From Streptomyces deccanensis (GTDB taxonomy: Bacteria; Actinomycetota; Actinomycetes; Streptomycetales; Streptomycetaceae), in contig NZ_CP092431.1 of the NCBI RefSeq assembly GCF_022385335.1, positions 4,650,001 through 4,714,000 on the forward strand: DNA of 64,000 nucleotides. Reading direction: 5' to 3'. Below, in pieces: positions 2,854 through 60,788 of the stretch. The notes below the pieces were generated by a model, which worked only from the letters and a program-made list of their open reading frames with translations, ran no database searches and was not told the DNA's origin. Made by a program: the position numbers and the translations under genes. How positions within the stretch are numbered: the stretch's first letter is position 1; every line of letters begins with the position of its first letter.

Positions 2854-2857
2854 AGCC

Positions 2858-10295: not shown

Positions 10296-10524
10296 CGCCA
10301 CATCCACCGGACCCATGGCCCGACCGACCTGACCCGTCCCGACCCTTCCGAGCCCGTACGCGCGCCGCCTGTCCGAAGCCGGTACGCGCCGCCCCACCTG
10401 TCCGAAGCCCGCCTCCACCCCACCCACTAGCCCGGCGCCTCACGACAGAGAACCCCGGACCCTGCCCACCCGAGCCCCCGTCCGCACCCACCCATCGCGC
10501 GCAGCGCGGAAGCTGGAGCCGATC

Positions 10525-11019
10525 ATGCCCTTGTCCGAGACGAAACCCGCGCTCCCGACTGTCCGTACGTCCACCGTCCCGGCCACCGACGAGAACGTCA
10601 CCCGGCTCGTCCACCGGCTGGAGGTCGGCGCGCTCCTGGACCGCTACCTCGTCGGCCTCGACGAGCGGCGGACCGACGACGACTGGGCCGCGTCCTTGTT
10701 CACGGCCGACGCCTGCGTGGAGTTCCCGATGGCCCGGCACGAGGGGATCGAGGGGCTGGCGGAGTTCCACCGCACGGCGATGGCGAAGTTCGCGCGCACG
10801 CAGCACCTGAACTCCGGCGCGGTCGTGGATCTCGGCGACGGCCACGCCACCGTGCGCGCCAACCTGATCTCGACGCAGGTCCTGCCGTCCGAGGCCCTGT
10901 TCACCACGGGAACCTCCGCCCACGGCGAGGCCCGCCTTGACGAGGACGGATGGCGCTTCAGCCACCTCTCCTTCCGGCTCGTGTGGTCCACCGGAGAGCC
11001 CCCGGTGCCCCGCACCTGA
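10525..11019 (+). CDS. SnoaL-like (NTF2 fold) protein
   Basis: A 164-residue NTF2-like protein (about 35-155) with an unstructured N-terminal tail. The pattern LLDRYLVGLDERRTDDDWAA followed by FTADACVEFP resembles SnoaL_4/dehydratase-type proteins rather than the ester-cyclase SnoaL at 6956. Members act as cyclases, dehydratases or isomerases. ATG 10525 follows CTGGAG. A 229-bp gap upstream (10296-10524), with a short direct repeat around CCTGTCCGAAGCC, may hold its own promoter. Confidence 0.75.
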   Translation: MPLSETKPALPTVRTSTVPATDENVTRLVHRLEVGALLDRYLVGLDERRTDDDWAASLFTADACVEFPMARHEGIEGLAEFHRTAMAKFARTQHLNSGAVVDLGDGHATVRANLISTQVLPSEALFTTGTSAHGEARLDEDGWRFSHLSFRLVWSTGEPPVPRT

Positions 11020-11052
11020 CCGCTCGACGGCGCCGACGCCCCCAGGAGACCC

Positions 11053-11973
11053 ATGTCCAGCCCCACCCGCCGGACCTCCGCGTCCGTCCCCACCGCGCCC
11101 GGCCTGTCCCCCGGCGTGCGCCGCGTCACCCTGGACGCCTCCGGCGTCCCCCTGTCGGCCCTGCTCGCCGAGCCGACCGGTGGCCTGCCCCGCGCCGCGG
11201 TCGTCGCGCTGCACGGCGGCGGCATGACGGCCGGCTACTTCGACGGCCAGGCCCGCCCCGACCTGTCCCTGCTCACCCTTGGGGCGCGCCTGGGCCTGAC
11301 CGTCCTCGCCGTCGACCGCCCGGGCTACGGCGCCTCCGCCCCTGTCTTCCCCGACGGGCAGACTCTCACCGAGCAGTCCATGACCCTGCGTGCGGCCCTG
11401 GACGACTTCGCCGGGCGGTACGAGACGGGCGGCGGCCTCTTCCTCCTCGCCCACTCCTACGGCGGCAAACTCGCCCTGACCGCCGCCGCCGACGACGACC
11501 GGGGCAGGCTGCTTGGCCTGGACGTGTCGGGCTGCGGACACCGTTACGCCGTACCCGAGAAGGACCTCCCGGGCGCGGACGGACGCGTGCGCCCGCAGCG
11601 CAGCTGGGGACCTCCGGGCTTGTATCCCCCCGGCACCTTCAGCCTCAGCCAGGGCCTGGTCGCCCCGATGCCCGCCCGGGAAGTCGCCGAACTCCCGCGC
11701 TGGCCACGGGTCTTTCCCGAGGTCGCGGCCCGGGTACGGGTGCCGGTCCGACTGACCTTCGCCGAGTATGAGTCGCTGTGGCGCCACGACGACGAGGCCG
11801 TCGCCGGACTCCGAGCGCTGCTGGCCGCTCCCCGGGTGGTGGTCGACCGACTCGGCGCAGCGGGGCACAACATCAGCCTCGGCCTGGCCGCCCGCGCCTA
11901 CCACCTGCGGGCGCTGGCCTTCCTGGAGGAGTGCCTGGCGCGGCGGCCCGAGGCGGCGACCGCACCGTGCTGA
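11053..11973 (+). CDS. Alpha/beta hydrolase
   Basis: A 306-residue serine hydrolase-fold protein. The oxyanion strand is ALHGGG, the nucleophile elbow is AHSYGG with Ser135, and the C-terminal histidine is likely His272 in AAGHN. AGGAG precedes the ATG. Its last 7 nt overlap the next start (GTGCTGA), implying translational coupling with the exporter at 11967. Hydrolases in this position release or edit intermediates, or cyclise them; the role here is open. Confidence 0.85.
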   Translation: MSSPTRRTSASVPTAPGLSPGVRRVTLDASGVPLSALLAEPTGGLPRAAVVALHGGGMTAGYFDGQARPDLSLLTLGARLGLTVLAVDRPGYGASAPVFPDGQTLTEQSMTLRAALDDFAGRYETGGGLFLLAHSYGGKLALTAAADDDRGRLLGLDVSGCGHRYAVPEKDLPGADGRVRPQRSWGPPGLYPPGTFSLSQGLVAPMPAREVAELPRWPRVFPEVAARVRVPVRLTFAEYESLWRHDDEAVAGLRALLAAPRVVVDRLGAAGHNISLGLAARAYHLRALAFLEECLARRPEAATAPC

Positions 11974-13244
11974 CCGACCGCAGGCCGGCCACCGGACGGT
12001 TCGGCCCCGCCGGGATGTTCCGGTCCCTGTCCGTGCGCAACTTCCGGCTCTTCGCCGCCGGGCAGGTCCTGTCCGTCGCCGGCACCTGGATGATGATCAC
12101 GGCCCAGGACTGGCTCGTGCTGGCGCTGACCGACGACTCGGCGACCGCCCTCGCCGCCGTCACCGCCCTGCAGTTCGCCCCTCTGATGCTGTTCACCCTC
12201 CACGGCGGCCGACTCGCAGACCGCCACGACAAGCGCCTGCTGCTCATCGCCGCCAACCTGGCCTCGGGCGCCATGGCCGCGGCACTGGGCGTGCTGGTGC
12301 TGTCAGGAACGGTCCGGCTGTGGCACGTCTGGCTGTTCGCCCTGGGACTCGGGGCCGTGAACGCCGTCGAGGTGCCCACCCGGATGTCCTTCGTCGGCGA
12401 GATGGTGGGAGCCGAGCTGCTGCCCAACGCGTCGGCGCTCAGCGCGGCGTACTTCAACGTCGCCCGGGTTGTCGGCCCGGCCGTTGCCGGGCCGCTGATC
12501 GGCGCGGCCGGCACCGGGTCGGTCATGCTGCTCAACGCGGCCAGCTACCTGGCCACCGTCGCGGGCCTGCACCGGATGCGTCCGGCCGAGCTGCACCGGG
12601 CGGACGAGCCGGGCAGCCGCCCCCGGATCCTCGACGGTTTGCGGCATGTAACGGGCCGCCAGGACCTGCTGCTGCCCATGGCGCTGGTCGCGGTGGTCGG
12701 TATGTTCGGGCTCAACTTCCAGCTGACCCTGCCGCTGATGGCCAAGACCGTGTTCCACTCGGACGCCGCCGCCTTCGGGTTGCTGACGACCGCGTTCGCC
12801 GCGGGATCGCTGCTGGCCGCGCTGGCCACCACCGCACGTCGCGGGCGCCCCTCCAGCCGTACGGTGATCGTCTCGGCGTTCGCGTTCGGACTGCTCACCA
12901 CCGCTGCGGGCGGTGCGCCCGGGCCGTCCGCCGCCGCCCTGCCGGTGGCGCTCACCGGCTTCGCCGCCGTCTACTTCGCCCAGGCCGCGAACCACCGCAT
13001 CCAGCTCGGCAGCGACCCGCGCTACCGGGGCCGGGTCATGGCCCTCTACACCCTCGTACTCCAGGGCTCCACACCTCTGGGCGCCCTCGTGGTCGGCCGG
13101 CTCTCCCAGGAGTTCGGCGCCCGCTCCGGCCTCTACGCGGGCGGCCTCGCGTCCCTGGCTGCGGCGGTCCTCGCGTACGCAGTCCAGCGCGCCCGTCCGG
13201 CGTACGACGGCCCCGGCGAGAGGCAGGTCCCCCATGACGGCTGA
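11967..13244 (+). CDS. MFS transporter (MFS_3, enterobactin-exporter type)
   Basis: A 425-residue, 12-helix transporter. The opening FRSLSVRNFRLFAAGQVLSVAGTWMM and the loop LADRHDKRLLL are typical of MFS_3 exporters. GTG 11967 is the first start after the hydrolase active region and overlaps the hydrolase stop by 7 nt. Its own end overlaps the phosphopantetheinyl transferase start by 11 nt, so hydrolase, exporter and transferase are co-translated. It is probably a second efflux route for the product. Confidence 0.88.
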   Translation: MLTDRRPATGRFGPAGMFRSLSVRNFRLFAAGQVLSVAGTWMMITAQDWLVLALTDDSATALAAVTALQFAPLMLFTLHGGRLADRHDKRLLLIAANLASGAMAAALGVLVLSGTVRLWHVWLFALGLGAVNAVEVPTRMSFVGEMVGAELLPNASALSAAYFNVARVVGPAVAGPLIGAAGTGSVMLLNAASYLATVAGLHRMRPAELHRADEPGSRPRILDGLRHVTGRQDLLLPMALVAVVGMFGLNFQLTLPLMAKTVFHSDAAAFGLLTTAFAAGSLLAALATTARRGRPSSRTVIVSAFAFGLLTTAAGGAPGPSAAALPVALTGFAAVYFAQAANHRIQLGSDPRYRGRVMALYTLVLQGSTPLGALVVGRLSQEFGARSGLYAGGLASLAAAVLAYAVQRARPAYDGPGERQVPHDG

Positions 13245-14073
13245 GCCTCTCGGCGGCCCCCGGCGCGGCCCGCTCCCCGGCCACCGTGTCGTGCCGCCGG
13301 CCCCGGCGCGCGTCCTCGGGCCCGCGCAGGTGCATCTATGGGCGTCGTACGTCCCCTGGACGGACGACGCCCGTCCGTCCCTGCCGACCGGCGAACTCGA
13401 CGCGCGGGAACGGAAGCGGGCCGCCGCCTTCGTGCGCGGGCGGGACCGGCTGCGGTACGTGTCGGCGCATCTGGCGCTGCGCCGGGTGCTCGCCGTGTAC
13501 CTGGGGACCGAGCCCGCCCGGGTGGTGTTCGGCAGGGACCCGTGCCCCCGCTGCGGGGGGCCGCACGGCCGGCCGGTGCTGCCGGGCAGCCCGCCGCCGC
13601 TGCACTTCTCCCTCTCGCACAGCCATGGCCGCGCGCTCGTCGCGCTCGCCGGGGTGCCGGTGGGAGCCGATGTCCAGCGCGTGCCGTCGCCGGAGGCCGC
13701 CGAGCTGTGCCTGGCCGCGCTGCACTTACGGGAGCGGCGGGAGCTCACCGGACTGCCGCCGAGCGAGCGCCCCGCCGAATTCGCGCGGGTGTGGGCCCGC
13801 AAGGAGGCGTACCTCAAGGGTCTGGGCACGGGGCTCGCGCGCGGGCCCGGCACCGACTATCTGGGCGGCGACCTCCGCGCCCGCCCCGCCGGATGGCTCG
13901 TCGCCGACGTGCCCGGCGCTCCCGGCCATGCCACCGCCGTGGCGCTGCACACCCGTACCGACCACCTGGCGACCCTGTGGGCGCTGCCCCTCGAGTCCCT
14001 GCACACCGACGACGCCGCCGAGCTGATCACCGCCGCCGTGCCCGCCTGGCGCAGCACCGTCCGCGCACAGTGA
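13234..14073 (+). CDS. 4'-Phosphopantetheinyl transferase, Sfp type
   Basis: A 279-residue Sfp-type enzyme that would convert apo carrier proteins to the holo form using CoA. It carries GADVQ with Asp146 and the WARKEAYLKG motif with Lys190-Glu191. The third Mg2+-site residue, Glu109 in Sfp, appears as Gln148 here. A small Cys pair (CPRCGG) sits before the core. The length is above the usual 225-250 because of the N-terminal extension. GAGAGG lies about 11 nt before ATG 13234. A cluster-borne copy argues for a carrier-protein pathway next door. Confidence 0.9.
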   Translation: MTAEPLGGPRRGPLPGHRVVPPAPARVLGPAQVHLWASYVPWTDDARPSLPTGELDARERKRAAAFVRGRDRLRYVSAHLALRRVLAVYLGTEPARVVFGRDPCPRCGGPHGRPVLPGSPPPLHFSLSHSHGRALVALAGVPVGADVQRVPSPEAAELCLAALHLRERRELTGLPPSERPAEFARVWARKEAYLKGLGTGLARGPGTDYLGGDLRARPAGWLVADVPGAPGHATAVALHTRTDHLATLWALPLESLHTDDAAELITAAVPAWRSTVRAQ

Positions 14074-38214: not shown

Positions 38215-39291
38215 ATGCTGCTGCTCGAACCACTCCGCGCAGCCGAGGACGGAACCGTCCCCGGCCCCCTCCTCGCCGAACTCACCGCCCTGCACTCCTC
38301 CAACCGCGACTTCCACGCCCTGAGCGGTGACTTCCCGGACGCGAACGACATCCGTCCCGAACAGGTGGCCGCGGCCCTGTCGATCGAGCTGGCCAACCCG
38401 GATGTGGAGATCCTGCTCGCGAGGGAGGGCACGGAGGAGGGGGACGGCCCCGCTCCCCGGCGGCTCGTCGGGATCGCCATCACCCTCGCGCGGCATCCCG
38501 ATCCCGCCGACCCCGACCCGTGGATCGGGTTGCTGCTCGTCGACGGGTCGGCCCAACGCCGGGGGTACGGAAGCCGGTTGGCGGCCCTCGTCGAGGAACG
38601 GTTCAGGCGGGCGGGGCGGGCCGCCGTCCGGCTGGCGGCGCTCGACAACACCCCCGGCGCCCTGTCCTTCTGGACCTCCCTCGGCTACGAGTTCGTCGAA
38701 CACCGCCGGGACCGCCAACTGGGGCGCCCCTGCACGGTGTTGCGCAAGCCGCTGAGCGAACCGTCGAGCGAGCCGCCGCGCAGATCGCGCCGGGCCGCGC
38801 GGATCGCCGTACTCGATCCGCAGGGTGCCGTCTTCCTCTTCCGGTACGTCGACGAGGAGACGGGCCCGCACTGGGCCCTGCCCGGCGGCGGTCTGGAGGA
38901 GGGCGAGTCGCCGCGCGAGGGCGCCCGGCGGGAACTGCGCGAGGAAACGGGCTGGACGGACGTGGAGCCGGGCGCCTTCCTCTGCTCCTGGGAGCACGAC
39001 TTCACCCGCGCCGGCGTCCGAGTCCGCCAGTACGACGACATCTACGTGGCCTGGGGCCCCCGCCGCGAGCCGGCCGGCGGCCTCCTCACCACCACCCGCG
39101 CCGAGGAGGGCATCCTGGCCTGGCGCTGGTGGACCCCCGCGGACCTGGCCGACCCGGCGGCCGAGCCCGTATGGCCGCCGGAACTGCCCCGGCTGCTGGC
39201 GGAGCTCGGGACGGCCGCCGACGCCGGGGTCCCCGGCGCGGGGGACCCTCCGCCGGCGACGGCCGACGTCAGCGGAACCGGGCCAGCCTGA
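38215..39291 (+). CDS. GNAT acetyltransferase fused to Nudix hydrolase
   Basis: A 358-residue two-domain protein. The GNAT fold (about 1-180) carries the acetyl-CoA loop QRRGYGS and the Nudix domain (about 195-330) carries a complete Nudix box (GGGLEEGESPREGARREL followed by REETGW). GNAT domains acetylate amines; Nudix domains cleave nucleoside diphosphate derivatives. Its substrates are unknown. The 3' end overlaps that of bacF by 23 bp in convergent orientation. GATAAC just upstream suggests leaderless expression. Confidence 0.85.
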   Translation: MLLLEPLRAAEDGTVPGPLLAELTALHSSNRDFHALSGDFPDANDIRPEQVAAALSIELANPDVEILLAREGTEEGDGPAPRRLVGIAITLARHPDPADPDPWIGLLLVDGSAQRRGYGSRLAALVEERFRRAGRAAVRLAALDNTPGALSFWTSLGYEFVEHRRDRQLGRPCTVLRKPLSEPSSEPPRRSRRAARIAVLDPQGAVFLFRYVDEETGPHWALPGGGLEEGESPREGARRELREETGWTDVEPGAFLCSWEHDFTRAGVRVRQYDDIYVAWGPRREPAGGLLTTTRAEEGILAWRWWTPADLADPAAEPVWPPELPRLLAELGTAADAGVPGAGDPPPATADVSGTGPA

Positions 39292-40429
39292 CGACCGCTT
39301 CGCGGAGCCGTTCCTCCGGGGCCAGCAGACTCACCCGTACGTATCCCTCACCGTGCTCCCCGAACCAGCGGCCCGGCGACACGGCCACCCCGGCCCGGTC
39401 GAGCAGCGCGTCGGCGAAGGCGACGGAGGGCTCGCCGGCCGGTGTCGGCAGCCAGGCGAAGACGGACCGGGGGACGTCGAGGTCCCAGCCCGCCTCCCGC
39501 ACACCGGACACGAAGACGTCGCGTCGGCGTTCGTAGATCTTCGAGAGGTCGTGGACACAGTCCTGGGGGCCGGTCAGGGCCGTGATCGCCGCGCGTTGGA
39601 TGAAAGGCGGGAGCGAGACGAAGTAGTGCTCCTGAAGGAGGTCGATCGCGGCGACGACGGCACGGTTGCCGACGACGGCGCCGACCCGCCAGCCCGCCAT
39701 GTTGTACATCTTCGACAGCGAGATGAACTCGACGCCCACCTCCTTCGCCCCGTCCGCCCGCAGGAACGACACCGGGGCCTCGCCGCCGAAGCTCAGGGCC
39801 CCGTACGCGAAGTCGGAGGCCACGAGCACGCCGTGCCGGTCCGCGAACCGGACCGTGTCGGCGTAGAACTCCGGCGGTGCCGTCACCGAGGCGGGGTTGT
39901 TGGGATAGTTGAGGAACATCAGCCGGGCCCGCTCGCGTGTCGCCCGGTCGAGGGCCGAGTAGTCGGGCAGGAAGCCGTTCTCCCGGCGGAGCGGCAGGGG
40001 GTGCATCCGGGCCCCGGCGAGGGCGACACCGGCCCAGTAGTCCGGGAAGGCCGGGTCCGGCATCAGACACACGTCGCCCGGGTCCAGGAAGCACTGGCTC
40101 AGCTCCACCAGTCCGGCCTTGGCGCCGAACAGGATCGCGACCTCGGTCTCCGGGTCCAGCTCGACCCGGTGGTTCGCGGCGTACCACCGGGCGATGGCGG
40201 CCTTGAGTTCGATGAGGCCCGAGAAGGAGCCGTACCGGTGGGTGGCGGGATCGAGGACCTCGGTGCGCAGCGACTCGACGATGTGCGGGGGCGTGGGCAG
40301 ATCGGGGTTCCCCTGGCAGAGGTTGACGACGTCCTCGCCCGACCGCACGAGCCGGTCGATCCTGGCCACGGTCGTCGCGAACGAGTTCCTGGGCAGGTCC
40401 CGGAGCCGGTGGGCGGACTCGATCCTCAT
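39269..40429 (-). CDS. bacF: BacF-like aminotransferase (anticapsin pathway)
   Basis: A 386-residue class I aminotransferase. CQGNPDLPTPPHIVESLR, LMFLNYPNNPA, ASDFAYGALSF and the PLP lysine in SLSKMYNMAGWR agree closely with B. subtilis BacF. BacF transfers an amino group from phenylalanine to the tetrahydro-hydroxyphenylpyruvate intermediate, giving tetrahydrotyrosine-type amino acids. ATG 40429 overlaps the exporter stop by 4 nt (ATGA), so it is translationally coupled as the last gene of the operon. Confidence 0.9.
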   Translation of the reverse strand: MRIESAHRLRDLPRNSFATTVARIDRLVRSGEDVVNLCQGNPDLPTPPHIVESLRTEVLDPATHRYGSFSGLIELKAAIARWYAANHRVELDPETEVAILFGAKAGLVELSQCFLDPGDVCLMPDPAFPDYWAGVALAGARMHPLPLRRENGFLPDYSALDRATRERARLMFLNYPNNPASVTAPPEFYADTVRFADRHGVLVASDFAYGALSFGGEAPVSFLRADGAKEVGVEFISLSKMYNMAGWRVGAVVGNRAVVAAIDLLQEHYFVSLPPFIQRAAITALTGPQDCVHDLSKIYERRRDVFVSGVREAGWDLDVPRSVFAWLPTPAGEPSVAFADALLDRAGVAVSPGRWFGEHGEGYVRVSLLAPEERLREAVVRLARFR

Positions 40430-41802
40430 GGCCGGTCCTCACGGTCGGCGGCCGCTTCGGGGCGGCGGTCCTCGGTCACCGCCACACGGCGGTCCTCGGT
40501 GACGGGCTCGGCCTTGGGCTCGGGCCGGTCGGTCCCGGTGGGGGTTCTGGCCTCGCGGCCGCGCGCCCACTGGCTCAGGCCGCAGGCGGCGAGTGTGATG
40601 CCCGCGCAGACGAAACCGACGGCGGAGAAGCCGTACTCGGTGAACAGCGGGCCGAGCAGGGCGGCGCCCAGGGCCACCGCCAGGTTGGTCGCCAGGGTGT
40701 AGAAGGCGAGGATCGTCCCTCGGTGGGCCGGCGAGCACTCACTCAGCAGGGTGCTCAGCAGGGTGACGACCAGGCTCTGCATCGCTCCCCACAGGAAGAG
40801 GCAGAGCACCAGCAGCGGGGTGAGATGGTCGACCAGCGGGATCACGGCCAGCGCCGGGACCAGTCCGGCCAGCAGACCGACGAGCACGCGCTCCTTGCCG
40901 AGGTCGTCGGCCCACTTCCCGGTGACGAAGCTCGTCGCGAAGCCGAGGCCGTACAGCAGGATCATCAGAGAGGTGGAGGAGCTCTCGTCGCCGAACCGGT
41001 ACTGCAGCGCGCTGCCGAGGTACGTGTACATGCCGTAGAAGCCGAGCATGTTGAGGAACGTCGCCAGGACGTACACCAGCACCTTCGGCGCGCGGAAGGC
41101 CTGGACGACCGAGCGGCTCCAGCCGCCGTCGCCCTGCCGCGCCGGTGTTCCCACGGCGTCGTCCGGGGTCCGCGCGGCGCCGTCCGGTGTGCCCTGTGGG
41201 CCGGTGGGCTCGGGGCGGGCGCGTCCGCCGGCCCGGAACAGCACGCCGATCACGAGGACGCCCAGCACGCAGAGCAGCCCGAAGGTCCACCGCCAGCCGA
41301 CCCGCTGACCGACGAAGTCCCCCATGGGCACGCCCAGGACGAGGGAGAGCGACCAGCTCGACACGACGATGCCCATGGCCCTGGCCCGGTGCCGGTACGG
41401 GATCTGGTCGCCGACGAACGCGTACGCGGTCGGTACGAACGCGCCCGTGGCCAGACCGGCCAGCGCCCGCCCGGCGAAGAACACCCCCAGGGAACCGGCG
41501 GACGCGCACAGCAGCGTGCCCAGGACGAACACCGTCATCCCGGTCACCAGTCCGACCCGCCGTGACACCCGGTCCCCGAGGGGGGCGAAGATCAGGGCGC
41601 CGATCGCCGTACAGACGCCGTAGACGCTGACCGACAGCCCCATCACGGCGACCGAGGTGTCGAACGACTCCGACATGTCCGGGAGCAGCGGGGACACCAC
41701 CAGCTCCTCCGAGCCGACGGCGAAGATCCCCGCCATGAGTGCGAGGACCGTCAGCAGGGGGAACCCCGCCGCGCGCTGCCCGCCGTCCAAGCGATCCGCC
41801 AC
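40426..41802 (-). CDS. MFS exporter of the anticapsin-type operon (DHA1)
   Basis: A transporter of about 458 residues with 12 predicted helices and the loop LGDRVSRRVGL. It belongs to the DHA1/AraJ-like group and is not similar by eye to B. subtilis BacE, so it is a positional analogue. It probably exports the amino acid and protects the cell. GTG 41802 is chosen because GGGAAAGG precedes it; GTG 41841 is in frame but falls beside a tandem repeat and has no clear ribosome site. It ends with a charged cytoplasmic tail. Confidence 0.85.
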   Translation of the reverse strand: MADRLDGGQRAAGFPLLTVLALMAGIFAVGSEELVVSPLLPDMSESFDTSVAVMGLSVSVYGVCTAIGALIFAPLGDRVSRRVGLVTGMTVFVLGTLLCASAGSLGVFFAGRALAGLATGAFVPTAYAFVGDQIPYRHRARAMGIVVSSWSLSLVLGVPMGDFVGQRVGWRWTFGLLCVLGVLVIGVLFRAGGRARPEPTGPQGTPDGAARTPDDAVGTPARQGDGGWSRSVVQAFRAPKVLVYVLATFLNMLGFYGMYTYLGSALQYRFGDESSSTSLMILLYGLGFATSFVTGKWADDLGKERVLVGLLAGLVPALAVIPLVDHLTPLLVLCLFLWGAMQSLVVTLLSTLLSECSPAHRGTILAFYTLATNLAVALGAALLGPLFTEYGFSAVGFVCAGITLAACGLSQWARGREARTPTGTDRPEPKAEPVTEDRRVAVTEDRRPEAAADREDRP

Positions 41803-41842
41803 TCCAGCCAACCTTTCCCGCCCACGTGCGCTGTTGCTCACT

Positions 41843-41884
41843 CGCTGTCACTCACTTGCTGTCACTCACTTGCTGTCACTCACT
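41843..41884. repeat. 14-bp tandem repeat, three units
   Basis: Three head-to-tail copies of (C/T)GCTGTCACTCACT (41843-41856, 41857-41870, 41871-41884) fill most of the gap between bacC and the exporter gene. Confidence 0.85.
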
Positions 41885-41942
41885 TGCTCTGGCTCGCTCG
41901 TGCTTGCTCATCCGCTTCTCCGCGCCGCTTTCCGCTGCCCGC

Positions 41943-42692
41943 TCAGACGGCCGTGTAGCCGCCGTCCACGGTGAGCGCGGCGCCGGTGATGAAGGACGAC
42001 CGGTCCGAGGCGAGGAAGAGGATCGCGTTCGCGACGTCCTCGGGCGTGCCCAGACGGCCGACCGGATTCAGCTTCGCCTTCTCCTCCTTGACGGTGGCGT
42101 CGTGACCGATGGACGCGTCCGTCATGGGGGTGTCGATGATGCTGGGGCAGACACAGTTGGCCCGGATGCCGTGGCGCGCGTACTCGACGGCCAGGGACTT
42201 CGTCAGCATCAGGACACCGCCCTTGGTGGTGTTGTACGCGGCGATACCGGGCCAGGCCACCAGCCCGCTGACCGAGCAGACGTTCACGATCGCCCCGCTC
42301 TCCGCCGCCATCATCGGGCGCAGCGCGTACTTGGAGCACAGGAACATGCTCTTCAGATTGGTGTCGAACAGCCGGTCCCACTCGGACACCGGCATCTCGT
42401 GGATCGGGGTGGATATCTCGATGCCGACGTTGTTGACCAGGACGTCCACCCGGCCGGTCCGCTCCGCGGCGACGGCGATCAGGTGCTCGCAGTCCGCCTC
42501 GGCGGTCAGGTCCGCCCGGACGAAGACCGCCCGGTGCCCGTCGCTGGTCAGCTTGGCGACGACCTCGGGTCCGTTCGTCCCGTCGACGTCCGCCACGACG
42601 ACCGTGGCGCCCTGCCGGGCGAACTCGACCGCCGTCCGCTTCCCGATCCCCGACGCGGCACCGGTGACCACGACGACTTTGTCCTCGAACAA
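41943..42692 (-). CDS. bacC: BacC-like dihydroanticapsin 7-dehydrogenase (SDR)
   Basis: A 249-residue short-chain dehydrogenase. The NAD motif is VTGAASGIGK, catalytic YNTTK contains Tyr and Lys, with the Ser in CSVSGL. GIEISTPIHEM, SGLVAWP, VNPxGRLG-type and TVDGGYTAV segments match B. subtilis BacC strongly. BacC oxidises the C7 hydroxyl of dihydroanticapsin to the ketone of anticapsin. The start is TTG 42692, with GGAGGG 8 nt upstream; no ATG or GTG fits. Confidence 0.9.
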   Translation of the reverse strand: MFEDKVVVVTGAASGIGKRTAVEFARQGATVVVADVDGTNGPEVVAKLTSDGHRAVFVRADLTAEADCEHLIAVAAERTGRVDVLVNNVGIEISTPIHEMPVSEWDRLFDTNLKSMFLCSKYALRPMMAAESGAIVNVCSVSGLVAWPGIAAYNTTKGGVLMLTKSLAVEYARHGIRANCVCPSIIDTPMTDASIGHDATVKEEKAKLNPVGRLGTPEDVANAILFLASDRSSFITGAALTVDGGYTAV

Positions 42693-42706
42693 GACTCGGT
42701 CCCTCC

Positions 42707-43477
42707 TCACACACTCTTCAACTGGCCGCCGTCGGCCGAGATCTGCTGGCCGGTGATGTAGGACGCCTCGTCGGAGGCCAGGAATCCGATGAGGGCGGCG
42801 ACCTCGTCGGCCTGCCCCGGCCGGTTCATGGGGACCGCCCGTACGAGACGGTCCTCGACCTCGGGCTCCGGAACACCCTCGTCCCGGCTCAAGTGCCGGA
42901 CGGCCTGGTCGTAGCGCGGGGTCCGGATGGTGCCGGGGTGCACGCAGTTCACCGTGACGTTGTGCGCGGCGTACTGGTTCGCCAGATATTTCGCGGCGTT
43001 CGCCATGGCCGCGTTGACCAGACCGGAGAGGAACATGCCCGGCAGGGGTTCCCTGCCGATGTTTCCGACGACGTTGATGATCCTGCCGAATTCGTTTCTC
43101 GTCATCACGGGCGCGACGGATCCGATGAGATCCAGATACGGCACGAGTTTCTGATGCATCGCGGCACATACGTCGTCGTTCACCCGCACCCCGTCGAACG
43201 GGCCGGGCGCCGGCCCGGGCCCGTTGTTGACCAGGACATCGATCCGGCCGAATCGTCGTTCCACCTTCGCCACGAGTTCGGCACGGAATTCCGGCGAGGT
43301 GATGTCACCCGGAACGACATAGGTGTTCCGTTCGACGCCGGATTCCCGCGCCACCTTCTCCAGCGCGTCCCGGCCGCGGGCGGTGAGGACCGTCGCACAG
43401 CCCCCGGACAACAGCCGCAGCGCGGTCGCCCGTCCGATACCGCTGCCGGCCCCCAGCACGATCGCTACGCGCGCCAC
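42707..43477 (-). CDS. bacG: BacG-like conjugate reductase (atypical SDR)
   Basis: A 256-residue SDR-fold protein with VLGAGSGIG. GRIINVVGNIGREPLPGMF, NAAKYLANQ, HNVTVNCVHPG and EASYITGQQISADGG agree strongly with B. subtilis BacG (YwfH). As in BacG, the usual catalytic Tyr is absent at the YxxxK position. BacG uses NADPH to reduce the conjugated dihydro-hydroxyphenylpyruvate to the tetrahydro form. GTG 43477 has AGAGGAG upstream; bacB ends 20 nt before it. Confidence 0.92.
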   Translation of the reverse strand: MARVAIVLGAGSGIGRATALRLLSGGCATVLTARGRDALEKVARESGVERNTYVVPGDITSPEFRAELVAKVERRFGRIDVLVNNGPGPAPGPFDGVRVNDDVCAAMHQKLVPYLDLIGSVAPVMTRNEFGRIINVVGNIGREPLPGMFLSGLVNAAMANAAKYLANQYAAHNVTVNCVHPGTIRTPRYDQAVRHLSRDEGVPEPEVEDRLVRAVPMNRPGQADEVAALIGFLASDEASYITGQQISADGGQLKSV

Positions 43478-43497
43478 CGATCTCCTCTGCCGTCCGT

Positions 43498-44175
43498 CTA
43501 CTTGGGGACCCGGTGATACCGGGGCGGAATGAAGATGTTCAGGGAGCGCGCCACACTCTCGTGCGGATTCGCGGCACCATGCCCCTCCTGACTCTCGCAG
43601 AAGTAGGTGGCACCGAAGACGAGTTCGTGGGTCGTCTCCTCCACCGTCATGTCGTAACGGCCTTCCAGGCAGATCCCGATCTGTTCGTGGGAGTGCTTGT
43701 GGTACGGCATCTCGCCGCCGCCCGGAATGTCGGCGATCATCAACTCGATCCAGTCCTCCAGAAAGAACGTGACGTCCATTCCGACGAACTTGCGTGACTC
43801 GATCGGGCCGAGGAAGTACTCGCTCGGCGCGGTGTACTTCTCACCCGGTTTGTAGCGTTTGATATCGAGCGCGACGGTCTCCTCCGACGTCGGGTTCACC
43901 GCGGAGTGCTCGACATGGGACGGAGCGATGTACACGTCCTTCTCGGCCCGCATCAGCCGGGTCACCCCGCCGACCGTCATGGAGAGTTCACCCCGGACGA
44001 CCATCCCCACCTGCGCCTCCCTGTGGGAGTGCGGTGCCACGACGGCACCGGGCGGGAGGTACGACACCAGGACCTCCGTGTCGCCACGCCGGTAGGACTC
44101 CATCCGGATCCCGTTGTCGTGCAACACCACGGCGGAGTCGGGGAAATAGGGGCGCTCATACACGTGCGTGGTCAT
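43498..44175 (-). CDS. bacB: BacB-like bicupin isomerase
   Basis: A 225-residue bicupin. Cupin 1 has the metal ligands HSHREAQ and a later HVEH; cupin 2 has HKHSHEQ and EGHGAANP. Three His plus one Gln per site is the BacB pattern. BacB isomerises the exocyclic-diene product of BacA to the conjugated dihydro-hydroxyphenylpyruvate and also takes part in epoxide formation in related work. ATG 44175 has AAGGAAGGA upstream and overlaps the bacA stop (ATGA). Confidence 0.9.
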   Translation of the reverse strand: MTTHVYERPYFPDSAVVLHDNGIRMESYRRGDTEVLVSYLPPGAVVAPHSHREAQVGMVVRGELSMTVGGVTRLMRAEKDVYIAPSHVEHSAVNPTSEETVALDIKRYKPGEKYTAPSEYFLGPIESRKFVGMDVTFFLEDWIELMIADIPGGGEMPYHKHSHEQIGICLEGRYDMTVEETTHELVFGATYFCESQEGHGAANPHESVARSLNIFIPPRYHRVPK

Positions 44176-44798
44176 CGCGGTCCTTCCTTTTCGAGTCTTT
44201 TCGAGAAGACGGTCCACGTCATGGGGATCGGTGAGAACCGGTAGACGAACTTGAGATTGTGCTGTCTCGCCGCCTGTTCATTGGTGATGGCGATGTTGTA
44301 GAGGCCGTCGGCCACCTGGCCGGCCGCCTGGCTCGTGGAGGTCGTCGTGACCAGCTTCACGGGCCGGTCGAAGTAGTACTCCAGCAGCGGAATGGGGGCC
44401 GGATGGGTCACCACGGTGTCGGTGAAGAGCAGTTCCTCGCGAAAGGCGAAGTCGGACCGCGCGGCCAATCCGTATTCCGGTGTACTCCCTCGGAACACGA
44501 TCGACGGCTCCAGCAGCGGATTCATGTAGAAGGCGTTGATACCGGCGTAGGCGTGCGGCACCAGCGCGAGATCTAAACGCCCCTCGGTGAGCGCGTCCAT
44601 ACAGTGCTCGAAGGTCTCTTCAAGAACTATTCCGAAGCGCCCTCGGTCACCGAGTAATCGTGTCATCAGCCGGGCCACGTACTCACTGCTGGTCCCCTCG
44701 GGGCCCAAGGTGCCGAGCCTCAAGGAACGTTGCGATCCGTCCCCCATGAGCGCTATCAGCGCACGTTTCTCGTCACCGGATATACGGAGCGTCTCCAT
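44172..44798 (-). CDS. bacA: BacA-like prephenate decarboxylase
   Basis: A 208-residue prephenate-dehydratase-fold protein. LGTLGPEGTSSEY, LVPHAYAGINAFYMNP, PEYGLAARSDF and AITNEQAARQ match B. subtilis BacA. BacA decarboxylates prephenate without aromatisation, the committed step that diverts the shikimate pathway to anticapsin and other dihydro/tetrahydrotyrosines. ATG 44798 has GAGGGTGAGG upstream. It is the first gene of the operon and is coupled to bacB. Confidence 0.92.
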   Translation of the reverse strand: METLRISGDEKRALIALMGDGSQRSLRLGTLGPEGTSSEYVARLMTRLLGDRGRFGIVLEETFEHCMDALTEGRLDLALVPHAYAGINAFYMNPLLEPSIVFRGSTPEYGLAARSDFAFREELLFTDTVVTHPAPIPLLEYYFDRPVKLVTTTSTSQAAGQVADGLYNIAITNEQAARQHNLKFVYRFSPIPMTWTVFSKRLEKEGPR

Positions 44799-45078
44799 AC
44801 CTCACCCTCACCAAGAGACAGCACAGGAGAGCACACGCAAGCCTCACGAAAAATTGTTTCCACCAGATTCCGTGCACGCAACAACAAGTTGCCCCATCGG
44901 TCACGCCACCGATCACGCCATCGATTTTCGGCCTGCTCCCACACATCGCGAGTGAAGTAATTCCGCCACGAATAGAAGACATCGAAACGGACGGAATCAC
45001 CCCGCTCTCACCGCCGTCCCGCCTGACCTCGGCGGAATCGGACCACGCGAAAGCCGGCGGACGGTCGCAGCGGTGGGA
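44799..45078 (-). promoter_or_regulatory. Upstream region of the anticapsin-type operon
   Basis: 280 bp, AT-richer than its surroundings. It contains a 15-bp dyad GCAACAACAAGTTGC (44878-44892) and a 12-bp tandem repeat TCACGCCA(C/T)CGA (44901-44912, 44913-44924). Either may be an operator. No regulator gene is adjacent. Confidence 0.45.
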
Positions 45079-46527
45079 TCAAGCCAGCGGAGGCTTTCCG
45101 TCCCCGTACAGCCAGTCGTCCCAGACCGGCGTCAGATCCGCGCCCGGCGCCGCCTCCTCCGCGAACTTCTCCGCATACGCCGTGAAGTCGGCCGTGTCCG
45201 CGTTGCCGTGGCGGTGCGCGGCCGCCCAGCCCCGGATCAGCTCGAAGAAGGCGTCGTCGCCGACGGCCTCGCGGACCTTGTGCAGGACCATGGCGCCGCG
45301 TTCGTACACCGGGCTGTCGGAGATCCGGGCGGCACTCGGCGGGCGCGCGGGCGGGAAGTCCCAGACGGCCTCGTTCGAGGCGGCGTCCGCGAAGTGGTCG
45401 CCCTCGTACAACGCGTCGAAGACCTCCTGGGCGCTGTCGCCCCCGTGGTCCTCCTCCCACAACCACTCGGCGTACGTCGCGAACCCCTCGTTGAGCCACA
45501 TGTCCCGCCAGCTCTTCGGGGTGACGGAGTCGCCGTACCACTGGTGGGCCAGTTCATGGACGAGGAGGGAGAGGTCGGGGGCGCCGGGGAAGACGGGCCG
45601 GTTCTGGGTCTCCAGCGCGTACGCCGAGTCCCCCGGCCTGTCGACGATCGCCCCGGTGGAGGAGAAGGGGTACGGCCCGAAGTTCCCCTCCGCCCACCGG
45701 ACGACCTCGGGGATGCGCCCCAGCACGGCCCGGCTCTCTTCGACCTGGGAGGGATCGACCGCGACGTACACGGGAAGCCGAGGGCTGCGGCCGCCGACCG
45801 TCGAGCGACGGATCTCGAACGCGCCGATCGCGAGCGTGGCCACATAGCTCGCCATGGGTTCGGCGGTGCGCCAGGAGAAGGTCGTACGGCCGTCGCGGGT
45901 GGACTCTCCCGTCAACTCCCCGTTGGAGACGGCTCGCAGGCCCTCGGGGACGGTGACCGTGAGGTCGTAGGCCGCCTTGTCGGAGGGGTGGTGGTTGCCG
46001 GGGAACCAGGCCATCGAGCCCGCCGGTTCGCCGAGCGCGAGGGCGCCGTCGGCGGTGGGCAGCCAGCCCTCGCGGGAGCCGTCGGGATCGGTGATCGTCA
46101 CGGGGGTGCCGGAGTAGCGCACGGTCGTACGGAACGTCTCCCCGTCGTCGAGCCCCTGCTCAGGGGTGACGGTCAGCTCCTGCCCGGCCCGCTTCCAGCG
46201 CGCCGTCACACCGTCGACGGCGACCGACGCGACGTCCATTCCCTTGAGGTCGAGGTTGAAGGAGCTGAGGTCCCGCGTGGCCCGCGCGGTGATGACTGCG
46301 GTGGCCCGCAGCCGGGCCTTGGCCTCGGGGCCGTAGTCGAGGGTGAGGGTGTAGTGGGTGACGTCGTACCCGCCGTTGCCGAGCCCGGGAAAGTACGGGT
46401 CCCGGAGGCCGGCGGAGCCCTTGGCCCTCTCGGCCTCACCGCCGCCGTCGGTGCACGAGGTGAGGGTCAGGGCCAGCGCGACGGTGAGCAGGGCGGCGGC
46501 CGGGACAACCGGTGCGGATCGGGACAC
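45079..46527 (-). CDS. M1-family metallopeptidase, lipoprotein
   Basis: A 482-residue gluzincin aminopeptidase. The signal peptide ends at the lipobox LTSC, so it is anchored outside the membrane. An N-terminal beta-sandwich precedes the catalytic domain, with HELAH and NEGFATYAEW supplying the zinc ligands and catalytic Glu. It should trim N-terminal residues from peptides. GTG 46527 is chosen because TAGGAT lies 7 nt before it, consistent with a leaderless mRNA; ATG 46557 is an in-frame alternative. Confidence 0.88.
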   Translation of the reverse strand: MSRSAPVVPAAALLTVALALTLTSCTDGGGEAERAKGSAGLRDPYFPGLGNGGYDVTHYTLTLDYGPEAKARLRATAVITARATRDLSSFNLDLKGMDVASVAVDGVTARWKRAGQELTVTPEQGLDDGETFRTTVRYSGTPVTITDPDGSREGWLPTADGALALGEPAGSMAWFPGNHHPSDKAAYDLTVTVPEGLRAVSNGELTGESTRDGRTTFSWRTAEPMASYVATLAIGAFEIRRSTVGGRSPRLPVYVAVDPSQVEESRAVLGRIPEVVRWAEGNFGPYPFSSTGAIVDRPGDSAYALETQNRPVFPGAPDLSLLVHELAHQWYGDSVTPKSWRDMWLNEGFATYAEWLWEEDHGGDSAQEVFDALYEGDHFADAASNEAVWDFPPARPPSAARISDSPVYERGAMVLHKVREAVGDDAFFELIRGWAAAHRHGNADTADFTAYAEKFAEEAAPGADLTPVWDDWLYGDGKPPLA

Positions 46528-46564
46528 GTCGGCGATCCTATGAGGACATGACACCATCGCCTAC

Positions 46565-47065: not shown

Positions 47066-47097
47066 GGGTGCCGCCGCGTTAGTCCGCGGCTGAGTGG

Positions 47098-47215
47098 GGC
47101 GTCTCGCGCAGTTCCCCGCGCCCCTGAAAAAGCGGGGCTGCGCCCCTGCTTTTTCGCCCCGAAATGGCCGTAGGCCTTTCAGGGGCGCGGGGAACTGCGC
47201 GACCAGCCCCCACCG
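47098..47215. repeat. Streptomyces palindromic repeat, copy 5 (complete inverted pair)
   Basis: Arms 47104-47129 and 47178-47202 carry the common core in opposite orientations, with an inner GCGGGGCTGCGCCCC hairpin. It lies between two convergent genes. Confidence 0.9.
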
Positions 47216-47309
47216 GACGGACGCTTGGGGGTCAAAGGGGCGCAGCCCCTTGAGGATGGGACGGGTAGGGGCGGCGGGGGCGAAAAACCCCACCCGACGA
47301 CCCCCAACC

Positions 47310-47978
47310 TCACCCCTCCACCCGAATCCCCATCTCCCCCGCCAACACCGGCGCCAGATCCATCAACTGCGCCGCACTGATCAACGCCCCCGACAACCGA
47401 TCCACCCCCCGAGCGATCTCCACGGACGCGGCCTCCCGCAGATCCACATCCACCAACCTCACCCCACTCAGATCCGCCCCCTTCACCGCACACCCCACAA
47501 ACGCGACCCTCTCCAGCCGCGCACCCCCGAAGTCCGGCTCGACCAGCACACAGTCCTCGAACACGACATCCCTCAACCGCGCCTCACGCAGATTGAGGAA
47601 GTCGATCTTCCCCCCACGCACGAGCACCCGCTCCAGCACGGCCCCGTGCAACTGCACCCCACCCAGCCGAGCCTCCACCAGCTCGACATCCCGCAACGTC
47701 GCCTCGGACAGATCCGTCCCGACGCCCCGTATCCCCGTGAGGACGGAGTCGAGCACCCGGGCCCGGTGCAGCCGCGTCTCGTCCAGCGCGCACCCCGTCA
47801 GCGCGCAGTCCATGAACCGGGCACCCCCACCGTCCTGCCCGACGAAGTCCTCCTCCCGGAACTCCAGCCCGTCATAGTCCCCGTCGGGCTCCAGCCCCCC
47901 GCCCGCGTACGCCTCCAGCACCGGCAACCGCACCTCAGGCCGCCGCGCCGCCTTCACCACCGACCTCGCCCTCACCAT
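47310..47978 (-). CDS. Pentapeptide-repeat protein
   Basis: A 222-residue protein whose centre (about 45-200) is built of A(D/N)LxX-type pentapeptides (ARFMDCALTGCALDETRLHRA, GADLSGVRLVDVDL), expected to form a quadrilateral beta-helix. Some family members mimic DNA and protect gyrase; most have no known role. ATG 47978 is preferred over a longer upstream frame because GGGGG lies before it. Confidence 0.85.
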   Translation of the reverse strand: MVRARSVVKAARRPEVRLPVLEAYAGGGLEPDGDYDGLEFREEDFVGQDGGGARFMDCALTGCALDETRLHRARVLDSVLTGIRGVGTDLSEATLRDVELVEARLGGVQLHGAVLERVLVRGGKIDFLNLREARLRDVVFEDCVLVEPDFGGARLERVAFVGCAVKGADLSGVRLVDVDLREAASVEIARGVDRLSGALISAAQLMDLAPVLAGEMGIRVEG

Positions 47979-48197
47979 CCCCCCATCCTGCACCCCGCCA
48001 CTGACAACGCACCTGAACCGCGTAAAGCCCCCCGAGCACCGCCCCACAGCCCGATGTCACATCCCGGCACCCCGGATCCGTCGTACCCGCGAACAGCCAC
48101 GCAGCCGCGCAGCCGCGCAACCGACCGCCGGACGCCGTCCGACGCACAGCGTCCGACGCACACCGACCGTCGGACACCGACCCGAGGGAGCCCAGTC

Positions 48198-49433
48198 ATG
48201 CACCCCACCCGACGACCCCCCACCCACCTCACCGTCATCGGCGGCGGCTTCGCCGGGCTCACCGCGGCGATCACCGCCGCCGAGGCGGGCGCGAGGGTCA
48301 CCGTCCACGAGGCGCACCACACACTCGGCGGCCGGGCCCGCACCGCGGAGGGGCCGTACCGCACGAACGAGGGACCGCACGCGCTCTACAGCGGCGGCCC
48401 GCACTGGACCTGGCTGGCGCAACGGGACCTGATCGGACCGCTCGCGCCCCTCCCGCCCCTGGAGACCACCCGACTGCGCCTGCACCACAGGGGCGCCCTG
48501 CGGCGGACCCCGCCGTTCGCGATGCTCAAGCTCCTCCGCCCGCGCCGCACGGGCCGCCCCGCGCCCGTCGACGTCGACTTCCTCACCTGGGCGACCGAGC
48601 AGGCCGGCGAGGAGGCCGCTCGCGCGGCGGCCAACTACGCGGCGGTGGCGCTGTTCCACCACGACCCGGGCTCCCTGTCCGCCGCGTTCGTCCAGGAACG
48701 ACTGCGCCGGGCCACGAAGTTGCCGCCGGAGGCGCACTACCCGCGCGGCGGCTGGGCGAGTGTCATCGACCGTATGGCGGCCCGCGCCTGGAACCTCGGC
48801 GTCCGAATGGAGACCCTCAGCCGAATCGACAGCCTCGACGCCCTCGCCAACCCCGGCCCCGGCACCGGACCCCGCACGGGCCCCGGCCCGGTCATCGTCG
48901 CCACCTCCCTGGACGCCGCCCGCCGCCTGCTCAAGGACGACTCGCTGACCTGGCCGAGCGGCCGCACCGCCCTCCTCGACCTCGCCGTACGCACCCGCCG
49001 CGGCGACGCCTTCGCCGTCTCCGACCTGGACACGCCCGGCTGGATCGAGCGGTTCACGGCCCAGGACCGCACCCTGGCCCCGGCGGGCGAACAGTTGATC
49101 CAGGGCCAGTTCCCGATCGGCCCGCACGAGTCACGGGCGGCCGGTATCACCCGCGCCGAACACCTGCTCGACCTCGGCTTCCCCGGCTGGCGGGACCGCG
49201 TCACCTGGCGGCGCGAGGCGACCGCCAACGGCCGTACGGGCGCCGTCGATCCGGTCGGCACCAGCTGGCGCGACCGCCCGGCCGTGGACCGGGGCGACGG
49301 CGTGTACCTCGCTGGCGACCAGGTCGCGGCGCCGGGCGTGCTCTCGGAGGTGTCGTTCAACAGCGCCCTGGCGGCCGTCTCGCTTGCGCTCGGCAGGAGG
49401 TCGAAGAACACCCTTGACCTCAAGCATGCTTGA
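48198..49433 (+). CDS. FAD-dependent amine-oxidase-like protein
   Basis: A 411-residue flavoprotein with the N-terminal FAD motif VIGGGFAGLTAAITAAE followed by HTLGGRARTA, as in phytoene desaturase and amine oxidase families. The C-terminal GVYLAGDQVAAPGVLSEVS closes the FAD site. The substrate is unknown. ATG 48198 has GGGAG upstream. Its last 18 bases form part of the SoxR palindrome for the next gene. Confidence 0.85.
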   Translation: MHPTRRPPTHLTVIGGGFAGLTAAITAAEAGARVTVHEAHHTLGGRARTAEGPYRTNEGPHALYSGGPHWTWLAQRDLIGPLAPLPPLETTRLRLHHRGALRRTPPFAMLKLLRPRRTGRPAPVDVDFLTWATEQAGEEAARAAANYAAVALFHHDPGSLSAAFVQERLRRATKLPPEAHYPRGGWASVIDRMAARAWNLGVRMETLSRIDSLDALANPGPGTGPRTGPGPVIVATSLDAARRLLKDDSLTWPSGRTALLDLAVRTRRGDAFAVSDLDTPGWIERFTAQDRTLAPAGEQLIQGQFPIGPHESRAAGITRAEHLLDLGFPGWRDRVTWRREATANGRTGAVDPVGTSWRDRPAVDRGDGVYLAGDQVAAPGVLSEVSFNSALAAVSLALGRRSKNTLDLKHA

Positions 49434-59196: not shown

Positions 59197-59378
59197 ATCG
59201 CGCAGACAACATCACGCGCGAAAGCGGCTCCACTCTACACAGAGGCCCTTTCCCGAAGCCATGACGTTTCGCCCGCACCTTGATCGCCCGCAACCTTGTG
59301 TAACCGACCGCTCACTCGTTCGTTGATCGACCTGACGTGCTGTTCCGAAGATCGGATCGTCGGGGAGGGGTGGGCGAC

Positions 59379-60788
59379 ATGAGGCGGCCTGCTGAGTTGA
59401 CGAAACTGCAGGCGGTGAACGGCACGGAAGCCGAACGCGTCAAGCGCGACGCCCTCGGTATCGCCGGCCGCCGCAAGCACCACACCCGCAAGGCGACACC
59501 GCTCAGGAGCCACACCAAAGAGGCCGACACACACCACCGCGTCTACCGGTTCCGCTTCTATCCGACCATCGAGCAAGCCGAGCAGTTGGGAAGGACTTTC
59601 GGCGCCTGCCGCTGGGTCTACAACGAGGGTCTGGCCTTGCGGGCGGCGGCCTGGGAGCAGCATCGGGTGAAGGTCGGGTTCGCTGAATCCTGCCGTGCGC
59701 TGACCGGCTGGAAGCGGGTCGAGGACACTGCGTGGCTCAAGGACGTGTCATCGACCGTGCTCCAACAGGCCCTGCGCCACGTCGACCAGGCGTTCACCCG
59801 GTTCCTGAACGGCCAGACCAGGTGTCCCGAGCGGAAGAAGAAGGGGAGGTCGCGGGAGTCCGCGATCTACGTGCGCACGGGCTTCAAGTGGGTCGAGGAC
59901 CCGGCTCTGCCCGGGACCGGTCTGATCACGCTTGCCAAACAGTCCGAGCCACTGCGCATCCGCTGGTCACGGGCACTGCCTGCCGGCGTGGTCCCGGTCC
60001 GCTTGTCGGTCACGCGTGACAAAGCCGGACGGTACTTCGTAGCAGCGCTCGTCGAGGAGCGCATCGCGCCACTGGCCGCCGCCTTCCTGCCGGACACCCA
60101 GGAGCCGAAGGCTGTGGGACTGGACCTGGGGCTGGCGTCACTCGTCACGCTCGACGACGGAACGAAACTGGATCAACCTCGGCTGTTGAAGCGGTACGCG
60201 GAGAAGCTGGCACGGCTCCAGCGCGAACTGCACAACAAGGTGAGGGGATCGAACAACCGGAACAAGGTCCGACAGAGGATCGCCCGCCTCTACACACTCA
60301 TCTCTGACATGCGCAAAGACATGCTGGACCAGTTCACGACCCGCCTCGTGCGCGAGAACCAAGTGCTCGTCGTGGAGGACCTGTCCATCGTGACCCTGCT
60401 GCGTCCGGCCCTCGGCAAGGGCCGACGGCGAAAAGCGAGGCTGAACGAGGCCATCCTCGACGCCGGGTGGGGTGAGCTGCTGCGGCAACTGCACTACAAG
60501 TGCGCGTGGTACGGCCGCACCCTGGTGATCGTCGACCGATTCTTCCCTTCAACTCGGCTGTGCTCGGCGTGCCGCTCGAAGGGGCCGAAGATAGACCTTT
60601 CGGTACGGGAGTGGACCTGCTCCCCTTGCGGGGCCGTCCATGATCGAGACGTGAATGCCGCCGCGAATCTCCGGGTCGAAGGGATGCGCCTGTACAGGCA
60701 GGTGACCGCCGGCTTGCCCCCGGGCACGACGGCGCCGACTGTGATCAGAGCTTCGGAACTGAAGGGGCCTCTACCGACCGCGTGCTAG
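59379..60788 (+). CDS. tnpB: TnpB, RNA-guided nuclease of IS200/IS605-type elements
   Basis: A 469-residue TnpB. The RuvC acidic residues are Asp249 (VGLDLGLAS), Glu333 (VVEDLSI) and Asp424 (DRDVNAAANL); the zinc ribbon is CSACRSKGPK with CSPCG. All key residues are present. About 50 residues precede the usual TnpB start (RVYRFRFYPT). ATG 59379 has GGGGAGGGG 8 nt before it. No tnpA is adjacent, so the element needs help to move. Family members cut DNA guided by an RNA from the element's right end. Confidence 0.9.
   Translation: MRRPAELTKLQAVNGTEAERVKRDALGIAGRRKHHTRKATPLRSHTKEADTHHRVYRFRFYPTIEQAEQLGRTFGACRWVYNEGLALRAAAWEQHRVKVGFAESCRALTGWKRVEDTAWLKDVSSTVLQQALRHVDQAFTRFLNGQTRCPERKKKGRSRESAIYVRTGFKWVEDPALPGTGLITLAKQSEPLRIRWSRALPAGVVPVRLSVTRDKAGRYFVAALVEERIAPLAAAFLPDTQEPKAVGLDLGLASLVTLDDGTKLDQPRLLKRYAEKLARLQRELHNKVRGSNNRNKVRQRIARLYTLISDMRKDMLDQFTTRLVRENQVLVVEDLSIVTLLRPALGKGRRRKARLNEAILDAGWGELLRQLHYKCAWYGRTLVIVDRFFPSTRLCSACRSKGPKIDLSVREWTCSPCGAVHDRDVNAAANLRVEGMRLYRQVTAGLPPGTTAPTVIRASELKGPLPTAC

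Follow-up and report, generated by a model that had tools for sequence, protein, structure and literature searches.

The closest described relatives of the locus considered here are found in Bacillus, Legionella, cyanobacteria and one Streptomyces. The bac operon of Bacillus runs in the order bacA-bacB-bacC-bacD-bacE-bacF, with bacG standing apart. In cyanobacteria, AerD, AerE and AerF make 2-carboxy-6-hydroxyoctahydroindole (Choi; PMC10143770), and a bacilysin-like island was published for Legionella strain Alcoy in 2010 (PMC2859405). Anticapsin is produced by Streptomyces griseoplanus (PMC9293202, PMC9272926) and inhibits GlmS, for which it has been called selective (PMC9272926). Here we analyze a 64,000-nucleotide stretch of Streptomyces deccanensis (NZ_CP092431.1, positions 4,650,001 to 4,714,000; hereafter the window), which carries six genes, bacA-bacB-bacG-bacC-MFS-bacF, on the minus strand at 39269-44798, where and in the shared orientation in which a preliminary description made from the letters alone had placed them. 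We consider it quite probable that they form a self-contained, horizontally acquired operon that makes and exports the free amino acid L-anticapsin.

The same description had recognized counterparts of BacA, BacB, BacG, BacC and BacF together with an exporter, and these assignments are right; the motifs it quoted, LGPEGTSSEY in BacA, EASYITGQQISADGG in BacG and NPDLPTPPHIVE in BacF, are all present. Judged by sequence comparison, the matches of four of the enzymes to their structures are far beyond chance (Table 1): BacB to 3h7j (B. subtilis BacB), BacC to 5itv (B. subtilis dihydroanticapsin 7-dehydrogenase), BacG to 3u49 (B. subtilis ywfH) and BacF to 6l1l, a 399-residue aminotransferase that we take to be B. 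subtilis BacF. That length agrees with the BacF of a review of the pathway (PMC9147277), and the score of the window protein against NCBIfam NF005977 lies above the cut-off of 494 bits. The BacA protein shows a prephenate dehydratase domain (PF00800), and a protein search returned 49 matches for it, one being the window's own cluster and 48 other relatives. The catalytic signatures are likewise kept. The Ser-Tyr-Lys set of BacC is found in all 11 actinobacterial rows that have BacC, the window included; all 12 actinobacterial rows of BacG, like the B. subtilis protein, are without the usual tyrosine of short-chain dehydrogenases/reductases (SDRs) four residues ahead of the lysine; and the window BacB has, at both of its cupin metal sites, the same His, His, Gln, His residues as B. 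subtilis BacB, presumably the metal ligands, which fits the cupin motif. For BacF the signature was judged by the full-length match and for BacA by family conservation. All five biosynthetic enzymes for anticapsin are, in sum, encoded together with their signatures intact. The preliminary description had allowed that BacB or BacC might be inactive, leaving a mere tetrahydrotyrosine; with the metal sites and the Ser-Tyr-Lys set in place, that objection does not apply. The sixth gene encodes a major facilitator superfamily (MFS) transporter, and a related MFS gene occurs in 11 of the 12 other actinobacterial loci, the twelfth (L047) being cut by a contig end. This protein is likely the exporter of the product.

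The genes are closely packed, with 4-base start/stop overlaps at bacA/bacB, bacG/bacC and MFS/bacF and gaps of 20 bp between bacB and bacG and about 100 bp between bacC and the MFS gene, all computed from the start codons chosen in this analysis. The best start of bacB is the ATG at 44175, the ATGA being shared with the bacA stop. A minus-strand open reading frame at 41908-42714 in a mechanical list is an out-of-frame reading, the true BacC being that of Table 1. Between 38000 and 46600 no regulatory RNA was found at Rfam gathering scores.

The absence of the BacD ligase, also claimed beforehand, is borne out for the window and, as regards a linked ATP-grasp_4 gene, for the whole genome. A profile derived from six ATP-grasps of this genome reveals no BacD-like ligase in the 64-kb window and no match in the fetched flanks of the 11 named actinobacterial loci; for eight of these the sequence reaches 10 kb to either side of bacA, and for L039, L041 and L047 it is shorter. 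The same profile does detect BacD in Bacillus sp. V3-13 (L116; 3vmm 7.8e-223), and it also matches in two Legionella loci and six unrelated ones. The other actinobacterial loci examined lack the ligase too, so its absence is no peculiarity of a single genome. The genome-wide search for bacD that had been proposed yields seven ATP-grasp_4 matches, the nearest 0.94 Mb from the operon; six of these proteins match BacD only in part, at 24-31%, and the seventh gives no match to it at E<=1e-3. A BacD encoded elsewhere in the genome was accordingly rejected, none of the seven genes being linked to the operon or BacD-like over its length. In 12 of the 13 genomes with the operon, no ATP-grasp_4 gene lies on its contig at a distance of 100 kb or less (several of these contigs are short); in G270 one lies about 143 kb away. 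The sole exception is CB02261, with such a gene about 18 kb from the operon. Its product is closer to the L-amino-acid ligase BL00235 (1.4e-19) than to BacD (4.6e-16), and, in the 10 of the predicted genes scanned there, it belongs to a separate group with methyltransferase, CobW-like and FemAB-like genes, past a terpene synthase and a cytochrome P450 (P450). A ligase within reach of the operon in relatives was rejected, and this one case is kept as evidence for the alternative discussed next.

This alternative holds that anticapsin is made and then joined to another amino acid by a ligase or non-ribosomal peptide synthetase (NRPS) encoded elsewhere, giving a bacilysin-like peptide. Besides the ligase-like gene of CB02261, it can draw on the seven ATP-grasp_4 matches and on matches to LAL_C2 at five places in the S. 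deccanensis genome, and a peptide would be the better weapon, as free anticapsin enters cells poorly (PMC9293202). The distance of the nearest ATP-grasp_4 gene, the lack of any that matches BacD over its length and the absence of such a gene from the 100 kb around the operon on its contig in 12 of 13 genomes speak against it, as does a crude motif search in which neither the window nor any of the 11 named loci showed an NRPS condensation motif paired with an adenylation motif. We judge this alternative unlikely.

The reading that the operon makes free anticapsin is, by the measure of gene content, homology, intact signatures and the lack of a linked ligase, well supported, as the preliminary description had proposed. 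The individual steps are taken from known pathways and laid over these observations and the conservation of the unit; the product, its export and the division of labor within BacB are what we infer. BacA would decarboxylate prephenate to dihydro-hydroxyphenylpyruvate, and BacB would move the double bond and install the epoxide, with its N-terminal cupin perhaps serving as isomerase and its C-terminal cupin as epoxidase. BacG would then reduce the conjugated double bond, BacF would yield dihydroanticapsin by transamination and BacC would oxidize the ring alcohol to give anticapsin. The MFS protein would export the anticapsin, so that the cell's own GlmS is protected, and L-alanine would not be added, BacD being absent. 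In Bacillus the last two steps are those of BacC and then BacD (PMC9147277); without BacD, the pathway should end at anticapsin.

Several points weigh against this reading. The LAL_C2 matches are other L-amino-acid-ligase-like ATP-grasps that could act in trans, and the genome-wide ligase search covered ATP-grasp_4 and LAL_C2 rather than every ligase family. No PDB relative of BacA was found, leaving no structure to check it against, so that its identity rests on its own protein family and the operon context. The exporter claimed at the outset stands as far as the presence of an MFS protein goes; one BLASTP comparison, with the MFS protein that takes the place of BacE in Bacillus sp. V3-13, gives no significant match. 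Further, no self-resistance gene is seen beside the operon. A linked resistance copy of GlmS was rejected as well: the genome has two full-length glmS genes (G000:C1:3802820-3804631 and 6332235-6334076), both far from the operon, and they may be ordinary. S. coelicolor presumably also has two, and hence the two copies are not used as evidence.

A second alternative is that the product falls short of anticapsin or differs from it, being dihydroanticapsin, a non-epoxidized tetrahydrotyrosine or a stereoisomer. Stereochemistry is not readable from sequence, and an S. coeruleorubidus operon that lacks bacC suggests that pathways ending in this way may occur naturally. In the window, however, bacC is intact, keeps its catalytic triad and is close to 5itv, and both BacB metal sites are intact, unlike those of the cyanobacterial AerE-type proteins, whose pathway makes Choi. 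This outcome appears improbable, and somewhat more so than a peptide product.

Table 1. Coordinates of the operon, its BacB metal motifs and the interval between its flanking genes in the window
Feature	Position	Strand	Basis
bacA-like prephenate decarboxylase (non-aromatizing), first step	44172..44798	-	PF00800 4.6e-8; own family; 65-97% in 11 named actinobacterial loci
bacB-like bicupin, isomerase/oxidase step	43498..44175	-	3h7j 1.7e-80; both metal sites intact
BacB N-terminal cupin metal motif H-x-H-x3-Q (fourth ligand His further on)	44011..44031	-	position hand-counted from protein
BacB C-terminal cupin metal motif H-x-H-x3-Q (fourth ligand His further on)	43681..43701	-	position hand-counted from protein
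bacG-like atypical SDR, conjugate reductase	42707..43477	-	3u49 4.1e-67; aligned columns
bacC-like SDR, dihydroanticapsin dehydrogenase	41943..42710	-	5itv 1.5e-84; Ser-Tyr-Lys conserved
MFS transporter, inferred exporter	40426..41841	-	PF07690 1.2e-65
bacF-like pyridoxal phosphate aminotransferase	39269..40429	-	6l1l 2.7e-108; NCBIfam NF005977 522.9 bits
Stretch between convergent stops of GNAT-Nudix gene (38215-39291 +) and M1 peptidase gene (45079-46557 -)	39292..45078	.	

Beyond the window, a scan with a query alignment of nine BacA proteins, taking one genome per species, retained 80 of 84 relatives. Eleven of these are close actinobacterial loci from Streptomyces, Actinomadura and one Thermomonosporaceae metagenome-assembled genome; S. 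griseoplanus is not among the 80 BacA loci kept. All six genes occur in the same order in 10 of the 12 other actinobacterial loci (nine of the 11 named ones and G270), and in the near relative MNU76 they are 92-98% identical to those of the window. The remaining two are L047, which stops after bacC at the contig end, and the S. coeruleorubidus locus (L044, 10001-14588), which is without bacC. The best BacC-like protein in the whole S. coeruleorubidus genome is only 41% identical, as against 76-98% in three other genomes. A Bacillus strain deficient in bacC holds dihydroanticapsin and dihydrobacilysin (PMC9147277), and the bacC-less operon predicts dihydroanticapsin as its product. The comparison with bac operons suggested beforehand thus finds homologues of BacA, BacB, BacG, BacC and BacF together and BacD absent. 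With rough gene calling, only generic or rarely shared genes recur among the loci beyond the six. The best candidate for an extra conserved pathway gene, encoding a 97-residue Dabb protein, is common to three loci and absent from the window, and the genes ahead of bacA in L045 and L047 (aldehyde dehydrogenase, ABC transporter and DAO oxidoreductase) are confined to those two near-identical loci; both candidates were rejected.

The operon is a transferable cassette, as follows from its differing neighbors, from relatives with joined flanks that lack it, from a difference in GC content at third codon positions (GC3) and from its conservation as a unit. It sits between a GNAT-Nudix gene and an M1 peptidase gene. 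Twenty-four same-genus relatives, none with a close BacA, were judged by their best M1 loci, and ten of them have the neighboring genes together without the operon. In six, the stop of a GNAT-Nudix-like gene is no more than 150 bp from the M1 stop (the match extends over the GNAT half only in four of the six); in four others, a TerD gene is found at most 161 bp from that stop; at the remaining 14 the site is not seen. In MNU76 the operon occupies the position that it has in the window, and the other ten named loci have different neighbors. GC3 is 0.78 in bacA, 0.87 in bacB and 0.86 in bacG, below that of the neighboring M1 (0.93) and Nudix (0.91) genes; bacC, the MFS gene and bacF (0.93-0.95) are not below these neighbors. 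The cassette is also rare: any BacA-family match occurs in 54 of 392 sampled genomes of the genus, a close BacA only in this genome and G270, and a strict BacC search succeeds in four of 394 family genomes, including this one. One could take this rarity, and the low GC3 of the first three genes, as in arrival from elsewhere, to mean that the operon is silent or decayed and gives no product under ordinary conditions, but its six open frames, intact signatures and the close preservation of all six genes in MNU76 make this very improbable.

The two cupin metal sites of BacB show a division that bears on its mechanism. The actinobacterial group comprises 46 rows (the window, 12 loci and 33 proteins, with five near-identical pairs), and its C-terminal site is intact in every one. 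The N-terminal site is broken in 42, which keep at most two of the four ligands, and intact only in the window, MNU76, Streptomyces sp. NPDC002643 (P0057) and P0058. The cyanobacterial rows are the reverse, the N-terminal site being intact in 31 of 31 and the C-terminal site in none. Both sites are intact in B. subtilis (3h7j), P0090-P0092 (one a Tumebacillus), P0093 and the two Legionella loci. Identity to B. subtilis in the N-terminal domain is 32-43% in ten loci that keep only the C-terminal site versus 49-54% in the four both-site proteins, and in the C-terminal domain 57-61% versus 60-63%; going by these alignments, the N-terminal domain has drifted in the former and the C-terminal domain has not. 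A full-length tree places the window, MNU76 and P0057 together (99) beside the rest of the actinobacterial group, with P0058 inside that rest (59/89), so that loss of the N-terminal site may be repeated; a tree of the C-terminal domain gave no resolved branching.

Choi has no epoxide, and 5zbe, which we take to be AerE, is presumably an isomerase of the kind required. With the opposite site losses—Choi-type cyanobacteria keeping the N-terminal site and most actinobacterial operons only the C-terminal one—this suggests that the N-terminal site is the isomerase and the C-terminal site the epoxidase. Against such a split, most actinobacterial operons would lack the isomerase site, and no second BacB that might replace it was found at E<=1e-12 in 13 genomes. 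If the site is lost without replacement, isomerization is spontaneous or is done by the C-terminal site, or the assignment is wrong. A combined picture, which we put forward tentatively as a real possibility rather than an expectation, is that the double bond is shifted at the N-terminal site and the epoxide formed at the C-terminal one; that cyanobacteria kept only the first, most actinobacterial operons only the second (isomerizing otherwise), and Bacillus and the window's small group both; and that the actinobacterial operons are a ligase-free sister branch of bacilysin whose product is free anticapsin or, in the absence of bacC, dihydroanticapsin. The opposite losses offer a concrete and cheap way to find the epoxide-making half of BacB, a step that is unclear in a review (PMC9147277); a published split of the BacB functions was not found in the literature searched, as far as its available excerpts go.

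The description of anticapsin from a Streptomyces dates from 1970, according to reference lists, and a ligase-free operon fits this old finding of the free amino acid. The preliminary description supposed that no genes were in hand for it, which goes too far: a genome announcement for Streptomyces sp. JV178 already notes a cluster matching anticapsin, as an antiSMASH/PRISM match only (PMC5754491), and a bac-like set in Streptomyces is therefore not new as such. In the excerpts of the literature searched, no paper ties anticapsin production by Streptomyces to genes, JV178 being a cluster match, and the conservation of the operon without a ligase, the limits of the cassette, the natural variant lacking bacC and the opposite BacB site losses were not found in print, with few subscription papers covered. 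The defined six-gene cassette makes the gene link of Streptomyces free anticapsin testable.

Elsewhere in the window, genes for a P450, a 728-residue class III aminotransferase-domain protein, an O-methyltransferase and a ferredoxin reductase-like protein lie on one strand (1402-8652, plus), perhaps another small biosynthetic cluster. An IS605 OrfB/TnpB-like protein with a Cas12f1-like TNB domain is encoded at 59337-60788 on the plus strand. A FAD amine-oxidase-like frame (47094-49433, plus) contains a pentapeptide-repeat match on the opposite strand (47310-48047, minus); one of the two is probably a shadow of GC-rich coding.

Two other bac loci are themselves reduced. That of Bacillus sp. V3-13 (10069-13365) is a decayed operon with bacA and bacC fragments, a full bacD, a 93-residue bacF remnant and an MFS gene in place of bacE. 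In Chengkuizengella axinellae (L080, 9941-12655) a shrunken operon has the front of BacA in frame with a piece that by eye resembles a transporter end, followed by bacF and bacG, and no bacB match in the locus. The Legionella loci (L058, L084) have BacA-B-G-C homologues in line and both BacB sites intact, as in the window; they differ in having an ATP-grasp gene and a transporter that is EamA-like by eye, and their aminotransferase is only 25-26% like the window's. A DAHP synthase-like gene (3-deoxy-D-arabino-heptulosonate 7-phosphate synthase) precedes bacA in L058, again by eye. The cyanobacterial AerD-AerE-AerF pathway shares BacA-, BacB- and BacG-like proteins acting from prephenate, but 29 of 30 cyanobacterial loci, which are of the aeruginosin type, show the crude NRPS motif pair that the window lacks, and the window BacB, with both sites intact, is not of the AerE type. 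Streptomyces sp. JV178 has proteins of the same family (BacA P0031 and BacB P0079), with the N-terminal metal site of BacB broken where that of the window is intact. The B. subtilis bac operon shares homologues of BacA, BacB, BacC, BacG and BacF, with the BacB, BacC and BacG signatures kept in the window; the gene order differs, and BacD is absent from the window operon. In its working the operon resembles the half of the bacilysin pathway that leads to anticapsin; because BacD was looked for and is absent, we do not class it as a bacilysin operon.

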